This document shows positions 4,552-22,888 of a stretch of 38,236 bases of DNA, piece after piece. This DNA is from Nitrospinota bacterium. GTDB taxonomy: Bacteria; Nitrospinota; Nitrospinia; Nitrospinales; JACRGP01. Made by a program: the position numbers and the translations under genes. The stretch lies in NCBI GenBank assembly GCA_016207065.1, contig JACQQK010000016.1, positions 1 to 38,236 on the forward strand. Direction: 5' to 3'. The notes below the pieces were generated by a model that saw only the letters and a program-made list of their open reading frames with translations, made no database searches and was not told the DNA's origin. How positions within the stretch are numbered: position 1 is the first letter of the stretch; each line of letters starts with the position of its first letter.

Positions 4552-4588
4552 AGGGCCGCCCGCTCGCCGTCATTCCGGCGACCGCCGG

Positions 4589-4636
4589 CCAGCGTGCCGC
4601 CGGACCCAACGCCGCCTCCCGCTAACGCGGAGGCGG
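4589..4636 (+). repeat. Element A, partial copy after dnaN
   Basis: Begins with the terminal palindrome-like CCAGCGTGCCGCCGG and continues ACCCAACGCCGCCTCC. That closely matches the reverse complement of the 22766-22888 copy (CCAACGTGCCGCTGG, then ACCCAACGCCGCTCC). The copy is truncated by, or fused to, the element B unit that follows immediately. Confidence 0.65.
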
Positions 4637-4703
4637 AAAATTCTCCCCCTTGCAAAGGGGGCCGGGCTTGCCACGGCGTCGCCCGGGCAAGCCGGGGGGA
4701 TTC
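4630..4703. repeat. Element B copy joined to element A
   Basis: Contains GCGGAGGCGG, then TTCTCCCCCTTGCAAAGGGGG, an inserted hairpin GGCTTGCC...GGCAAGCC, and the trailing GGGGGGATTC. The same A-then-B arrangement, with the same GCGGAGGCGG joint, is seen inside the coding region at 8515-8668. That implies A and B can move or be copied as one composite. Confidence 0.7.
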
Positions 4704-4723
4704 GCTTCTGGGCGCCTGCCCGG

Positions 4724-7993: not shown

Positions 7994-10027
7994 TCGCGGA
8001 TCGGGTTTGGCGACCGGCAAACCGCGGGTGAATTGCCAATCGATCGGTTTCCGAATATCGATGCCGCCAAACTGGGTTTGCAAGTTCAAGGCGACATGCT
8101 GAATCAGGCGTTCCAAATTCGCCTTGTCCTCGTCGCTCCAGGACAGGGGCGTTTGCAGGAGTCTGTCCTGGAACGCGCGCAGGAGCTCCGGGTTGCAGGT
8201 TTTTTCTTCTCCCGGAAAGATGTTGGGGAGGAAAACGATCTCCAGGAAAGTCTTGGCCGCCGCGTCGGGCAACGGTTCGCAGGAAATTTCCTTGAACAGC
8301 GTGTAGCGGGCCAGGGCGGCGCTCGTAAACGCGGCGTAGTCCAAGTCGTCCTTGTTTTCCGGATAGAGCCGCTTCGCGGAAACGCGTTCGAGGGCGTTCT
8401 CGTTCAAGCCCAGGCAAATCTTGAGGAACCGGGTCAGGAAATGGGCCCGTTGCAGGAAATTCTCCGCCCGGCGGATGTCCGCGAGCGATCCCGGGTCGCG
8501 CCACTCGCCTCCCGCCAACGTGAACGTTGGATCCAACGGGCTCGGCTCGGATAGCGAACGCGCGTTATTGAGGGCGGTTGGGGCATGGCCTGTTACCTCC
8601 GGGCGTTTGCCCGGCGCGGAGGCGGGGGGGTTCTCCCCCTTGTAAAGGGGGCCGGGGGGATTCCCGCCATCGCGCCGGCGAGTATCTCCTTTATCGTCCC
8701 AAGAGGCGGAAACTTGCGGAAAACGGTCCGCCAGGGCGGCCAGTTCCTCTTTTTCCCGTCCGGTCAATACCCGCTGTAAAAACGGACCGTGGTTCTTGAG
8801 GAGGGTTTCGGCCTGCCATTTCAAATGCAGAAGTTGTCCGTAGCCCGCTTGGAACAGGGACTGGATCCAGGCCCGCTCCAGAAGTTTTTCGCCCTTGTGG
8901 ATATCGCCCTCGGCCCCCGCCTCCAGCCCGATATTGACGTATCCCAGAACCTTGCGCATGACCGCCGTTTGCGTTTCCAAAGTGGAGGGGTCGCGGCGGT
9001 CCGCCACGATGACCTTGTTGGCCAGATAGACGAGTTCCCAGCGGATGGCCTCGGTCCGCGCGGCGTCGGCGATCAGGCCCAGGCATTGGCCGAAAAACGC
9101 GGAGCCGTCGGCGTCGGCCAGGGGATAGCGGGGCGCGGCGGCATATTTCCCTCCCTCGGAAAAGTCTTCCGGAGAGGGCGTCCCGGTTTTTAAAGCCTCG
9201 GGATCCAGTCGGCTGTAAATGGCGATGGCTTCCTCGAATTCGGGTATGCCCCTCTCCGCCGCGCGGAAAACCCGCCACCGGTAGGCCGACTCGACCGTGG
9301 GCGTGACGGGGTACCAGATGGCCGCTTCCATGAGGGAAAGGTAGACTTTTTCGCAATCGGTCCGCAACAGCTTGAGGGTTTTTTCGAGCGCCGGACGGGC
9401 TTCCGGGACTTTGAAGTAAATATCGTAAACGCCGTCCAGGGTGATATGGGGCAGGTCCTCCGTGCCCTCGTAACGGTCGGTCATTTCGTCCCTTTTGCAG
9501 ACCTTGATCAGCGATTGCAGGACCATGACCTTCGGCTCGAACTCTTCCGTCAGAAACCAGTTGAGCGCCTGCGGGTCGGAACACTGGTCGAGGAGGGCCA
9601 GCCAGTGTAGCGCGCGTTGCGGCAGGAACTTGTCCTCCAGCCACCATTCCACGTCGAAGATATATTGAAGCTGGTCCTCGGAAATGACGGACAAGATCGG
9701 GAGCGTCTCCTGCTCGCCCATCTCCTTGACCATATAGTAAATTTCCTCCGGAGGCAGGGCCCGGACCGTCTCGATCCCCCTGGGCGACAAGAACAGCATG
9801 TCCAGGCGTTCCCGGCCCCGCAGGCCCAGCGCATGGCGCGCCTGATCGGCGACCGGCAATTGCCCCAGGATTTCCTCGACTTGCCGCGGGTTGGAATGGA
9901 TCCACTCCGCGGGGAACGGAAGGTCGTCTATAGGTTTGCCGGAAACGGCTTTATTGGGAATTTTCATGGTCGAAACTTGAATATCTCGCTGAAAAACGAC
10001 GCTGATTGGGTTGGAAGGATTTTTCAA
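7991..10027 (-). CDS. Large DUF6178-like protein carrying repeat-derived insertions
   Basis: A 678-residue soluble protein without membrane segments. It resembles what I remember of the DUF6178 family in deltaproteobacteria (segments such as GLRGRERLDMLFLS, LPPEEIYYMVKEMGEQETLP, DVEWWLEDKFLP); the family has no established function. It has two plausible starts, ATG at 10027 and an internal ATG at 9967 (MKIPNKAVSG); the second may be the true one. Residues about 453-506 are encoded by repeat DNA: element B (8615-8668) and element A (8515-8614) lie in the coding region, yet the frame stays open and conserved-looking sequence resumes (LADIRRAENFLQRAHFL). The inserted segment is rich in G, P, S, T and A and has no hydrophobic core, so it is probably a disordered loop. 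Confidence 0.85.
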   Translation of the reverse strand: MKNPSNPISVVFQRDIQVSTMKIPNKAVSGKPIDDLPFPAEWIHSNPRQVEEILGQLPVADQARHALGLRGRERLDMLFLSPRGIETVRALPPEEIYYMVKEMGEQETLPILSVISEDQLQYIFDVEWWLEDKFLPQRALHWLALLDQCSDPQALNWFLTEEFEPKVMVLQSLIKVCKRDEMTDRYEGTEDLPHITLDGVYDIYFKVPEARPALEKTLKLLRTDCEKVYLSLMEAAIWYPVTPTVESAYRWRVFRAAERGIPEFEEAIAIYSRLDPEALKTGTPSPEDFSEGGKYAAAPRYPLADADGSAFFGQCLGLIADAARTEAIRWELVYLANKVIVADRRDPSTLETQTAVMRKVLGYVNIGLEAGAEGDIHKGEKLLERAWIQSLFQAGYGQLLHLKWQAETLLKNHGPFLQRVLTGREKEELAALADRFPQVSASWDDKGDTRRRDGGNPPGPLYKGENPPASAPGKRPEVTGHAPTALNNARSLSEPSPLDPTFTLAGGEWRDPGSLADIRRAENFLQRAHFLTRFLKICLGLNENALERVSAKRLYPENKDDLDYAAFTSAALARYTLFKEISCEPLPDAAAKTFLEIVFLPNIFPGEEKTCNPELLRAFQDRLLQTPLSWSDEDKANLERLIQHVALNLQTQFGGIDIRKPIDWQFTRGLPVAKPDPR
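8515..8614 (+). repeat. Element A copy inside the DUF6178-like coding region
   Basis: A 100-bp unit opening with the palindrome CCAACGTGAACGTTGG, then ATCCAACGGGCTCGGCTCGG and ATAGCGAACG, and closing ACCTCCGGGCGTTTGCCCGG. It aligns along its length with the 99-bp yyaL units (CCAGCGTGACGCTGG, ACCCAAACGGCTCGATTCGG, ATGGCGAACG ... CTCCGGGGCGTTCCCCGG). Relative to the gene it sits in the opposite orientation to the yyaL case. Confidence 0.85.
8615..8668. repeat. Element B copy inside the DUF6178-like coding region
   Basis: Continues directly from element A with CGCGGAGGCGG, then TTCTCCCCCTTGTAAAGGGGG and GGGGGGATTCCCGCC. It is the same composite as at 4589-4703 but lacks the extra hairpin. It encodes the G/P-rich GGNPPGPLYKGENPP segment of the host protein. 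Confidence 0.8.
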
Positions 10028-10070
10028 ATCATTCTACCATGAAATCACGGTAAAAAAATCTCCCTTGTCT

Positions 10071-10110
10071 TCCGGGCCGGGCCCGTTGGATCCAACGTTC
10101 ACGCCGGCCG
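10071..10110 (-). repeat. Element A fragment between genes
   Basis: On the minus strand this reads CGTGAACGTTGGATCCAACG followed by GGCCCGGCCCGG, matching the first half of the 8515-8614 copy, including the 14-bp perfect palindrome CGTTGGATCCAACG. Only about 40 bp is recognisable. It lies between the DUF2461 gene and the DUF6178-like gene start. Confidence 0.6.
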
Positions 10111-18300: not shown

Positions 18301-19416
18301 TACATGCGGGAGGCGATCGTCCGTTACGGCGTCCCGGTCAAGCGGGAGGCGGACGCATTGATCGTTTCCGGGAAAGGCGGCGTTTTACAGGCGCCGCAAG
18401 AAGAGATTTATGTCGGCAACGCCGGGACGGCCATGCGGTTCCTGGCCACGTTCGCGGCCCTGGCGCCGGGGACCAGCCGCCTGACGGGCGACGAGCGCAT
18501 GCGCGAACGCCCCATCGAGGACCTGCTGGCCGGTCTGCGCGCCATGGGCGTGCCCGCCGAATCGGTCTTGAACAACCAATGCCCGCCGCTGGTCGTCCAA
18601 GGCGGAAACGTCCCCGGCGGCGAAATCCGCCTGGCCGCCGACAAGAGCAGTCAATACCTGACTTCTCTCCTGCTCTCCGCCCCGTATTTTCAAAAAGATT
18701 CCGTCATCCGCGTCGCCGGGGAGCTGACCTCTAAATCCTACGTGGACATCACGCTGGACATCATGAAGACCTTCGGGGTCCGTGTGGAAAATGAGGGATA
18801 TTCCGTTTTCCGGGTATCGGCCGGGCAGAAGTACGCGCCCCGGGAGTACGCCATCGAGGGCGACGCGTCCAGCGCGTCGTATTTCTTCGCGTCCGCCGCG
18901 GTCTCCGGCGGCGAAGTGACGGTGACCCGCCTCAACCCGGACAGCGTGCAGGGCGACATGCGGTTTCTGGACGCCCTCGAGCAAATGGGGTGCCGGGTGG
19001 AAAAATCCTCCGGAAAAATCGCGGTCAAGGGAAATCCTTTGCGGGGGATTTCCATCAATATGAATACCATGCCGGACGTCGTCCAGACCCTGGCGGTCGT
19101 GGCGTTGTTCGCGGACGGCCCGACCGCCGTCGCGGGGATCGGCAATTTGCGGATCAAGGAGACCGACCGGATCGCCGCCCTGGAGCGCGAATTGACGCGG
19201 CTGGGCGCGCGGGTCGAATCCGGGCCCGATTACCTGACGGTCCATCCCGCCGCCCGTTACAACCCGGCGGAGATCGAAACGTACAACGACCACCGCATGG
19301 CCATGAGTTTCGCGGTCGCCGGGTTGAAGATTCCCGGCGTCAAAATCAAAAACCCCGAGTGCGTGAGCAAGTCGTTTCCCGACTTTTTCGAACGGTTTAA
19401 AAAATTACATGGATGA
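15331..19416 (+). CDS. Restriction-methylase protein fused in frame to EPSP synthase
   Basis: One uninterrupted frame of 1361 codons. Residues 1-about 130 form a PD-(D/E)XK nuclease-like domain: E36 in GGESA, P50-D51 in LYPDVLLYG, and E68-L-K70 in GWELKLP. Residues about 340-580 form an N6-adenine methylase: [12 protein letters not shown], the SAM site [10 protein letters not shown] from D365, and catalytic SNLPF at 462-466, where L replaces the first P of the usual NPP[YF]. Residues about 620-920 resemble a target-recognition/C-terminal region of type IIG enzymes ([25 protein letters not shown]). From about residue 942 the frame becomes AroA. The methylase part is AT-rich like the preceding gene; the AroA part returns to local GC-rich composition. 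The ATG at 15331 forms an ATGA overlap with the upstream methyltransferase. Whether a single fused protein is made or aroA restarts internally is unknown. Confidence 0.85.
18154..19416 (+). CDS. aroA: 3-phosphoshikimate 1-carboxyvinyltransferase (EPSP synthase) portion
   Basis: The shikimate-pathway enzyme that joins PEP to shikimate-3-phosphate. All signature sites are present: [71 protein letters not shown] and [14 protein letters not shown]. The domain begins at the TTG at 18154 (LIEIQPAT), exactly where a normal AroA would start with M-x-IxIxPA, giving 420 residues. The upstream in-frame ATG at 18106 ([10 protein letters not shown]) is an alternative; neither has an evident ribosome site. 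The frame upstream is open into the methylase, so this may instead be a C-terminal domain. The next gene starts 8 bp inside its end. An essential function is probably preserved. Confidence 0.75.
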
Positions 19417-21688
19417 ACATCGCTTTACCAACCTCCTGGTCCACGAAAAAAGCCCCTATCTCCTCCAACATGCCCACAACCCCGTCGACTGGCGCCCCTG
19501 GGGCGAGGAAGCGTTTAAAATCGCCAGGGAACTGAACAAGCCTTTGCTGGTGAGCATCGGCTATGCGACGTGCCACTGGTGCCACGTCATGGAACGGGAA
19601 TCGTTCGAGGACCCGCAACTGGCGGAACTGCTCAACGCCGGATTTGTCTGTATCAAGGTGGACCGCGAGGAACGCCCCGACGTGGACAGCGTCTACATGC
19701 AGGCGTTGCAATCCATGGGCCAGCAGGGCGGCTGGCCGCTGAACGTTTTCGTGACCCCGGAAGGCCTGCCGTTTTACGGCGGCACTTATTTCCCTCCCCA
19801 GCCCCGGTTCCACCTGCCGTCCTTCGCCAACGTGCTGGAGTTCCTGAGCGGATTATGGAAAAACGACCCCGGCAAGATCCAGCGTCAAAGCCAGGCCATC
19901 GTCGCCCACCTCAAGCAATCGGCGGTCAGAACGGAAACCGGGGCGTTGGACACCTTGGATTTCGAGGGCGAGGACCGCGCCGTAAAGCTCTACGAAAGCC
20001 ATTACGACACCTTGAACCACGGTTTCCGCTTTCAGCCCCAGAACAAGTTTCCGCCGTCCATGGGGTTGGGCCTGCTCCTGCGCCATTACCGGCGGACGGG
20101 TCACAAACCCAGCCTGGACATGGCCGTCAACACGCTCCGGGCCATGAAAAACGGCGGCATCTACGACCAGATCGGCGGCGGCCTGTCGCGCTACAGCACG
20201 GACTACCGCTGGCTCGTCCCGCATTTCGAAAAAATGCTTTACGACAACGCCCTGTTCGTGACCGCGCTCGTCGAAGCGTGCCAGGCCGGGGGCGCCCCGG
20301 AGTTCGCGGACTTCGCCAACGACGTCCTGGCGTACATCGACCGCGACATGACCTCCCCCGACGGGGCGTTTTACAGCGCCGAGGACGCCGACAGCGAAGG
20401 GGTGGAGGGGAAATTCTACGTCTGGACGCAGGAGGAAATCGAAAAGGTTCTGGGCCGCCAGACGGCCAGCGTGACGCTGGACCCAAACGGCTCGATTCGG
20501 ATGGCGAACGAAGATCGTCGAGGGCAATCCGAGCCCGGCCATCCCGCTCCGGGGCGTTCCCCGGCCAGCGTGACGCTGGACCCAAATGGCTCGATTCGGA
20601 TGGCGAACGAAGATCGTCGAGGGCAATCCGAGCCCGGCCATCCCGCTCCGGGGCGTTCCCCGGCCAGCGTGGCGGGTCCCTACTACAACGTCACGCCGCG
20701 CGGGAACTTCGAGCATAAGAACATCCTACACGTCACCCGCGCGCCCGCGGAACTGGCGAAGGAACTCGGCCTGCCGGAGGCGGCGGTCGTCGAGGAACTC
20801 GGCAAGGCCCGTTCCCTCCTCCTGGAAGAGCGGAGCAAACGCATACGGCCGTTGCTGGACGACAAGGTCCTCGTCTCCTGGAACGGACTGATGATCTCCG
20901 CGATGGCCCGGGCCGGGCGCGTCCTCGACGACCCGGAGCGGATACGCCGCGCGGAGCGGGCGGCGGACTTCATCCTGACCCGCATGCGCGCCCCGGACGG
21001 CGGTCTGTTCCGCCGGTTCCGGCAGGGCGACGCCCGCCATAACGGCTATCTTTTCGACTACACGTCCCTGGCGGTAGCCTGCCTGGAACTCTATGAAGCG
21101 ACTTACAAGCCCACATACGTCAAGCTCGCCGCCGAACTGATGCGGTTGACGGACGAGAAATTCGCGTCCGGCGACGGCGCGTACCATGAGACCCCGGCGG
21201 ACGGGGAAAACCTGATTGTTCGGCAGATTTCCGGATACGACGGCGTCGAGCCCTCCGGCAACAGCAACGCCGCGTTGGCCCTCCTCAAGCTGTCCGCGTA
21301 CCTGGGCGACCCGGCCTACGAACGCAAAGCGGAAAAAATCTTCCTCGTCTTCCACGAGGACCTGATGGATTACGGGCTCAACTCCTCCTTCATGATGCAG
21401 GCCCTGCACCTCTACCTCGGCGGGCTGAAGGAAGTGGCCGCGGTGGGACGGCGCGACGACCCGTCCACCCAGGCCATGCTGAAGACCGTCCGCCAGGGAT
21501 TCTTCCCCAACGCCGTCTTCGCCTTCGCCTACGAGGACGAGGCGGAGACCGCCGCCCGCGACGTCCCCCTGCTCGCCAACCGCAAAACCATCGACGGCAA
21601 GGCTGCGGCCTACGTATGCCGGCGCGGCGCCTGCCTGCCGCCCACGACCTCCCCGGACGAACTGGTCAGCCTGCTGGGCTACGAATAA
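19409..21688 (+). CDS. Thioredoxin-domain protein, SPATA20/YyaL (DUF255) type, with in-frame tandem repeat insertion
   Basis: A 759-residue member of the DUF255 family: an N-terminal thioredoxin-like domain followed by an (alpha/alpha)6-barrel glycosidase-like domain. The redox site is C55-H-W-C58-H in [17 protein letters not shown], then [14 protein letters not shown] and [11 protein letters not shown]. The barrel has PKFPPS-like [15 protein letters not shown] and [21 protein letters not shown]. Normally a conserved stretch of the type EEIxxVLG...YYxVTxxGNFExKNIL is continuous; here about 66 residues (352-418), two copies of a 33-residue unit beginning [20 protein letters not shown], are inserted in the middle of it. 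The enzyme activity of the family is not established. Removing the insertion gives the usual family length of about 690. The start overlaps aroA by 8 bp. Confidence 0.93.
20464..20670 (+). repeat. Element A tandem pair within the yyaL-type gene
   Basis: Two direct copies of a 99-bp unit (starts at 20464 and 20563), with a third partial terminus, GGCCAGCGT, at 20662. The copies differ at only one base seen by eye (AAC/AAT, silent). Each starts with the palindrome CCAGCGTGACGCTGG, and the shared terminal motif between copies suggests tandem duplication by recombination between terminal palindromes. The period is a multiple of three and has no stop in the frame used. Confidence 0.95.
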
Positions 21689-21772: not shown

Positions 21773-22765
21773 ATGCGTAAAGAACTCATCGACTCCATCA
21801 TCGAAACGGCCATGGGCGGGGAAGGCATCGACCGCGAGCAGGCCCTGCTGGTCGGGACCCTGGACCGCGAGGAACTCCTGTACCTGTTCCAGGGCACGGA
21901 CCGGATCCGCGACAAGTTCAAGGGCCCGGACGTCAAGATTTGCTCCATCGTCAACGCCAAATCGGGGAAATGTCCCGAGGATTGCGGGTTCTGCGCGCAA
22001 TCGTCCAGGTTCAAGACCGATTCGCCGGAATACGGGCTCCTGGACGTCGATAAAATCGTGGCCGCGGCGAAAGAGGCGGAGGCTTTCGGCTCCAACGAGT
22101 TTTCCATCGTCACGTCGGGCACGGCGGTGGACGACCGGAAGGAACTGGACGTTCTCAAGGAGGCCATCCGGCGGATCAAGGCGGAAACCAGCCTGGAGGT
22201 TTGCTGTTCCCTGGGCCTGATGAGCCTGGAAAACCTGAAAGAGTTGAAAGCCGCTGGACTGGACCGCTTCCACCACAACCTGGAAACCGCCGCCAGCCAT
22301 TTCGACAAAATCGTGACCACCCACTCCTACCGCGACGAAATGCAGGCGGTCAGGAACGCCGGCGAGGCGGGACTCAAGGTCTGCGTCGGCGGCATCTTCG
22401 GGATGGGCGAAACCTACGCGCAGAGGGTGGAACTGGCCTTCGACATCCGCGACATGAAAACCGATTCGTTCCCCATCAACTTCCTGAAACCGCTCCCCGG
22501 CACGGCCTTGGAACATCTGGACTACCTCGATTACCACGAGGCCCTGCGGACGATCTCGCTTCTCCGCCTCGTCCTGCCCGCCATCGACCTGTTCGTATGC
22601 GGGGGACGGGAGGAAATCCTGGGCCAGGGCCAGGACCTGCTCTTCGCGGCGGGCGCCAACGGCATCCTCGGCGGCAATTACCTGACCACCAAAGGCCAGG
22701 ACCCCAAAAAAGACATCGAAATGATTGAAAACCTCGGCCTCCGGCCCGTCTTCCAATCCGCCTGA
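21773..22765 (+). CDS. bioB: Biotin synthase
   Basis: Radical SAM enzyme that inserts sulfur into dethiobiotin. The [4Fe-4S]-SAM motif is C67-PED-C71-GF-C74, followed by AQSSRFKTDSPEYGLL. Residues for the second [2Fe-2S] cluster and substrate are in VCCSLGLMS, HHNLETAASHF, GGIFGMGET and the C-terminal FLKPLPGTALE, FVCGGREEILG and GANGILGGNYLTT. Start ATG 21773 gives 330 residues, typical length; in-frame starts at 21722 and 21755 would add unconserved residues. An AT-rich stretch just upstream (21727-21752) could contain the promoter. It is followed by an element A copy that begins directly at its stop codon. No other bio genes are visible. Confidence 0.95.
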   Translation: MRKELIDSIIETAMGGEGIDREQALLVGTLDREELLYLFQGTDRIRDKFKGPDVKICSIVNAKSGKCPEDCGFCAQSSRFKTDSPEYGLLDVDKIVAAAKEAEAFGSNEFSIVTSGTAVDDRKELDVLKEAIRRIKAETSLEVCCSLGLMSLENLKELKAAGLDRFHHNLETAASHFDKIVTTHSYRDEMQAVRNAGEAGLKVCVGGIFGMGETYAQRVELAFDIRDMKTDSFPINFLKPLPGTALEHLDYLDYHEALRTISLLRLVLPAIDLFVCGGREEILGQGQDLLFAAGANGILGGNYLTTKGQDPKKDIEMIENLGLRPVFQSA

Positions 22766-22888
22766 CCAGCGTGCCGCTGGCCGGGCTACGCCCGGAGGCA
22801 ACGCGGCGATGACGCTGGCGCGATCGCCGAAACGCCATTCCCGCCCCGGCGTAAGCGCGGAGCGGCGTTGGGTCCAGCGGCACGTTGG
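22766..22888 (-). repeat. Element A, full-length copy abutting bioB
   Basis: A 123-bp unit. On the minus strand it begins CCAACGTGCCGCTGGACCCA and ends CTCCGGGCGTAGCCCGG followed by CCAGCGGCACGCTGG, so both terminal palindromes are present. This copy defines the element boundaries best. It starts on the base after the bioB stop codon. Confidence 0.85.

Follow-up and report, generated by a model that had tools for sequence, protein, structure and literature searches.

A GC-rich palindromic repeat found in frame within protein-coding genes of a groundwater Nitrospinota bacterium

The Rickettsia palindromic elements (RPEs; Ogata et al. 2000/2002) are palindromes of ~100-150 bp carried in frame by functional genes, with nearly half of them inside open reading frames (PMC2229807, PMC10969869). 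Smaller hairpin repeats, the REPs, which measure 20-40 bp and end in a GTAG or CGTC tag, are likewise found within genes, including replication genes, and are described from Opitutus terrae and Rickettsia conorii; the CGTC class is defined by its terminal CGTC tag, a stem of 8-9 bp and a CCA tail, and has no dedicated transposase (PMC3733652). The Correia, ERIC and YAPL sequences are short palindromic repeats similar to MITEs, some of which form in-frame fusions (PMC2229807, PMC10969869).

The repeat described here, element A, lies in a window of 38,236 nucleotides. This is the whole of contig C104 from a groundwater Nitrospinota bacterium, whose metagenome-assembled genome measures 2.96 Mb (G000; 190 contigs, 79.6% complete). 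The nearest genome belongs to the same genus (G001; JACRGP01 'Nitrospinota bacterium NC_groundwater_1754_Pr3_B-0.1um_58_23', 71% complete) and is ~96% identical to it in nucleotide sequence over 190 kb of alignments.

Comparison with the described systems provides the place of element A among them. It resembles the RPEs as a palindrome of similar length (~99 bp against 105-150 bp) that is found inside and between genes and in frame in conserved genes. It differs in being GC-rich, in belonging to another phylum and in being nested in other palindromes, and no sequence relation was seen in the literature searched, where its core sequence is absent, PMC2229807, PMC10969869 and PMC3733652 included. 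Because element A uses both orientations and three frames, it encodes no single conserved peptide, unlike each RPE. With the REPs it shares the presence of hairpins inside genes, replication genes among them, and, as with CGTC REPs, no dedicated transposase was found for it; however, it spans ~99 bp with three hairpins and has no terminal GTAG or CGTC tag. Neither its consensus nor its alignment ends in GTAG, and no RAYT gene flanked by element A, as in a REPtron, was found in the two genomes (79.6% and 71% complete). Its stem of 6 bp (CCAGCG/CGCTGG) and the missing terminal tag separate it from the CGTC class. Like the Correia, ERIC and YAPL repeats, element A is short, palindromic and non-autonomous, and some copies are in frame, but no terminal inverted repeat surrounds its in-gene copies. 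As for classical MITE features, one clean insertion (L200/L048) lacks a duplication, and the yyaL insertion has a native 10-bp match on both sides.

An earlier note on this DNA had compared the repeat with RPEs and called its sequence unlike any known. Both statements are supported: a palindrome of ~100 bp is dispersed over genes and spacers, is read in frame in functional genes and is missing from homologues outside the genus, while an Rfam search of the window and comparison with phage and plasmid sequences gave no match. We regard element A as an RPE-like protein-coding palindromic repeat of different sequence and phylum, not to be filed as an RPE; its identity and location are well supported, which does not extend to its movement.

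Element A and its two host genes in the window

Element A consists of a 5' hairpin (CCAGCG-TGA-CGCTGG), a central imperfect palindrome and a 3' hairpin (CCGGGG-CGTT-CCCCGG). A profile derived from its copies detects most of them on either strand at one and the same position, hence the body itself is an imperfect palindrome. Folding energies of single copies are only modestly better than those of shuffled sequences (z -0.4 to -2.7). As RNAalifold returned only a weak partial fold for 107 copies, the pairs of the 5' hairpin were counted directly; its stem shows a compensatory change from G-C to A-T (93 GC, 11 AT and 3 AC). The features of the window are collected in Table 1.

Table 1. Element A, associated repeats and host genes in the window
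Feature	Position	Strand	Basis or remark
Composite between genes: element A 5' hairpin, GCCTCC hairpin, element B	4577..4719	.	Sequence comparison
Host gene, DUF6178 protein, 678 aa	7991..10027	-	Intact frame; PF19676, E=1.3e-107
Outer palindrome, left arm CGCCTCCCGCC, element A nested within	8506..8516	.	RNA fold pairs arm with 8615-8626
In-frame insert of ~58 aa at residues ~448-505	8513..8686	-	Protein alignment
Element A copy, antisense to DUF6178 gene	8515..8614	+	5' hairpin CCAACGTGAACGTTGG 8515-8530, central imperfect palindrome, 3' hairpin CCGGGCGTTTGCCCGG 8599-8614
Outer palindrome, right arm CGCGGAGGCGGG	8615..8626	.	Sequence; RNA fold
Element B core CTCCCCCTTGTAAAGGGGGCCGGGGGGATT, independent palindromic repeat	8633..8663	+	49 copies in 708 kb sample
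Intergenic partial element A, 5' half	10068..10106	-	Sequence comparison
Second host gene, yyaL-like (Thioredox_DsbH/DUF255)	19409..21688	+	Intact frame; dN/dS 0.13-0.14
GGCCAGCGTG at yyaL insertion point	20464..20473	+	Recurs at far side of insert; native in G002 as ACGGCCAGCGTGGCG
Element A copy 1 in yyaL, sense	20466..20564	+	Sequence comparison, profile
Element A copy 2 in yyaL, tandem, 99 bp, 99% identical	20565..20663	+	Sequence comparison
Composite of A-type hairpins, between genes	22764..22888	.	Sequence comparison

In agreement with the earlier note, elements A and B both lie inside the open DUF6178 frame, whose 678 codons contain no stop, and element A is reversed there relative to its orientation in yyaL, with both host frames intact; yyaL has two tandem copies in sense. 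The profile matches the DUF6178 copy at 8515-8602 of the + strand with 66 bits, and this copy shares 62% identity with the yyaL copies over 99 nt without gaps. Homologues of the DUF6178 protein are found in 36 of 40 relatives. Alignment with 15 outgroup homologues reveals ~58 extra residues between two conserved blocks; this segment is G/P/S/T-rich, as had been noted, with its borders at the residues given in Table 1 instead of 453-506. Family-level and order-level matches stop near residue 445 and restart near 508. The insert is missing in the aligned family and order relatives and present in the sole same-genus genome, G001, where 5 and 10 additional residues accompany it. In the AlphaFold model pLDDT falls below 50 at residues 444-506 and elsewhere only in the N-terminal 33 residues; the insert has a value of about 30, the core is near 90 and the rest of the model is mostly high. 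The insert is thus predicted to be a disordered loop.

At the DNA level, the insert presents element A in antisense between the two outer arms, followed by element B. The nested arrangement of arms and element A recurs at loci L002 and L005, and as the composite with element B is present on other contigs, it may travel as one unit. The core of element B has 96% identity over 26 nt with positions 4641-4666; 10 of its 49 copies in the G000 sample lie inside genes, and a single histidine kinase gene (L105:15070-18396) accounts for three of these.

The yyaL insert is missing in outgroups, and the congener has a single copy of element A where G000 has two, a difference of 33 codons that can be due to slippage or recombination. 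The uninterrupted yyaL of G002 already has the native form of the 10-bp sequence, which suggests that the 99-bp unit was inserted where 10 bp of the host sequence match its own end. The AlphaFold model of the yyaL-like protein (mean 70.6) has low confidence at residues 351-444 and in several other places; being poorer overall, it is less informative than the DUF6178 model.

Copies in genes and spacers

Element A is found in unrelated hosts, which by Pfam are DnaX, NifU, Ppx/GppA, Dus, SNase, histidine kinases and O-antigen ligase, and also heptosyltransferase-like, LON-type and trypsin-like proteins. Most inserts lie beyond the matched domain or at its border, but those of the LON-type and SBP_bac_5 proteins interrupt it; in NifU the insert sits between the N and C domains. 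In G001 the sole dnaX found carries an insert, at a position where outgroup linkers are shorter and variable; dnaX was not found in the 79.6% complete G000. In the TMEM260-like/TPR gene L171:3839-6892 of G001 there are three copies of element A, two of which are missing from the G000 orthologue. Where an orthologue was available, the dN/dS of hosts was 0.13-0.41, compared with a median of 0.20 for 126 orthologues, and on these values the host genes look functional. The possibility raised earlier, that the two host genes of the window are pseudogenes, is contradicted by values of 0.27 for DUF6178 outside the element and 0.13-0.14 for yyaL.

Copies were counted in a 708 kb sample of G000, of which 85% is coding. 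Genes were called with our own gene finder, by which a frame-breaking insertion would escape being counted as inside. The sample contains 37 copies: 16 inside genes, 18 between genes and 3 at gene ends. Contigs sampled by number alone give 5, 5 and 1, respectively. Because contigs with the element were over-represented in the G001 sample, its inside/between ratio was left out. By extrapolation, the genome has about 150 dispersed copies, with about two in five inside genes. Random placement would put 85% inside; genes are therefore depleted of element A (p=2e-7), and the in-gene excess for which a count had been proposed is reversed. A crude filter in which only frame-neutral in-gene insertions survive expects 54% inside, against the observed 16 of 34 (47%); this model is rough, as it ignores loss from spacers.

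In-gene copies occur in both orientations. Frame 0 is used by 9 of the 10 antisense copies, frame 2 by 8 and frame 1 by 4 of the 13 sense copies. These three frames hold 21 of 23 copies, where 67% would be expected from their openness (p=0.007, with copies that are not all independent), and the peptides they encode have no motif common across frames. The frames of element A are uneven, some mostly open (74-84%) and others mostly closed (26-35% open). The earlier description of an element translated in either direction without stops does not extend to six frames: intergenic copies have 3.61 of six frames open, compared with 3.74 +/- 0.17 in dinucleotide shuffles, and the proposed depletion of stop codons beyond chance did not materialize. 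Since the stop content of intergenic copies matches base composition, composition and purifying selection suffice to account for openness. None of 96 intergenic copies in two samples was spanned by a protein, a search with power only where an uninterrupted orthologue is present.

Distribution and sites of insertion

Among the candidates scored in each genome (at most 11), the full 99-bp element A was found in the genus and in one copy in G042, a genome from a different family of the class. This copy (L244, G042:C217) has both terminal inverted repeats and sits on a contig of 3.3 kb; it reflects either bin contamination or transfer. The 21-bp 5' hairpin is common in several other genera of the order (274 in G044, 101 in G002, 90 in G024 and 83 in G004), almost always outside long ORFs in the loci read; it is absent in G003 and G031, and reversed-pattern controls gave zero. 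Viral contigs in IMG/VR contain the hairpin CCAGCGTGNCGCTGGACYCAA in 26 stretches of varied G+C (L304-L329), in several cases directly between stop and start codon, and without the body of element A. Carriage of element A by phages or plasmids was considered and found no match, the viral contigs having only the 21-bp 5' hairpin.

A separate element has the terminal inverted repeat AGAGCGTCTAACAAAATG at both ends with ~200-360 bp between them (for example, L094:19086-19171 and L226:5794-5880). This terminal repeat has 129 matches in G000 and 203 in G001, and none in G002, G004 and G024. Of 96 intergenic copies of element A, 38 have this repeat on one or both sides, compared with none of the in-gene copies, and some intergenic copies of the AGAGCGTCTAACAAAATG element carry element A.

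Aligned open frames of the two congeners differ by 34 codons in L143/L211, by 66 in L158/L170 and by 32 and 28 in L108/L171, in addition to the yyaL and DUF6178 differences above; divisibility by three is partly built into such a reading. Comparison with relatives, as the earlier note had proposed, yielded DUF6178 genes free of the insert outside the genus, and no target duplication at the one clean site: at L200/L048, an intergenic insertion, the flanks are clean and unrelated, and the empty site is devoid of element A. L143/L211 resembles the yyaL site, with an end match of 11/12 read by eye, so that a target rule based on the end junction has one clear site and one looser one behind it. Y1 transposase (PF01797) was not found in the 80% complete G000. 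A weak RAYT-like Y1 transposase frame in G001 (L259, G001:C60) has another repeat on either side, of the TTTTTATGGAGC...GCAACGCGAGGACGCG type; this repeat is present near L046 as well. On these two results, RAYT is not supported as the cognate transposase.

Origin and maintenance of the inserts

We favor, with a probability of roughly 80%, the reading that element A is a non-autonomous selfish palindromic repeat dispersed in one Nitrospinota genus and tolerated where frame and fold survive. Element A would copy itself around the genome, often nested in or joined to palindromes such as element B. Insertions would hit genes and spacers alike, and selection would purge those that break frame or fold; because element A is GC-rich, several of its six frames would be open and approximately one insertion in five would be frame-neutral. 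Least certain is how it moves. It might do so in single-stranded form, either as a hairpin or as a circle, with an enzyme acting in trans, joining at sites that match its end junction (CCCCGG/CCAGCGTG) instead of making a fixed-length target duplication. The whole of this scheme, with integration into genes and palindromes and with a genus-specific body added to a short hairpin of order-wide and viral occurrence, is tentative and rather unlikely to be right in full.

Spread could also have occurred with no transposition, by replication slippage, template switching and recombination between copies. The 99-bp yyaL tandem and one L171 insertion do extend or reuse repeat sequence in place, and copies lie between complementary arms in excess (stem score >=8 in 22.5%, compared with 7.0% with shuffled flanks). 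The clean L200/L048 insertion and the dispersal of copies over the genome nevertheless make this improbable as the general account. Less probable again is co-option, by which the repeat would supply useful linkers or loops and be kept by positive selection. Congeners do share inserts in several genes, such as DUF6178, yyaL (one copy), L101/L213 and L161/L229, but the hosts are unrelated, three frames without a seen common motif are used, other genera do without the inserts, disorder is predicted, and constraint is low in those copies that could be aligned between the genomes (about 10 nonsynonymous against 8 synonymous changes, one misaligned case excluded). That the genome is metagenome-assembled, in 190 contigs and 80% complete, could suggest an artefact of assembly or binning, or pseudogenes; identical insertion points in a separately assembled congener, intact frames with low dN/dS and an insert in the only dnaX copy found leave this hardly credible.

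Most known examples of palindromic repeats that code for protein come from Rickettsia and Wolbachia, whose reduced, AT-rich intracellular genomes make weak selection a natural explanation. The selfish repeat favored here belongs to a GC-rich groundwater bacterium of another phylum, in which it reaches similar scale and enters dnaX, nifU and other housekeeping genes, in either orientation and in more than one frame. The process is testable through the polymorphic filled and empty sites of the two congeners. These results suggest that base composition and the tolerance of loops admit such repeats into proteins, and that neither an intracellular lifestyle nor a special coding peptide is what does so.
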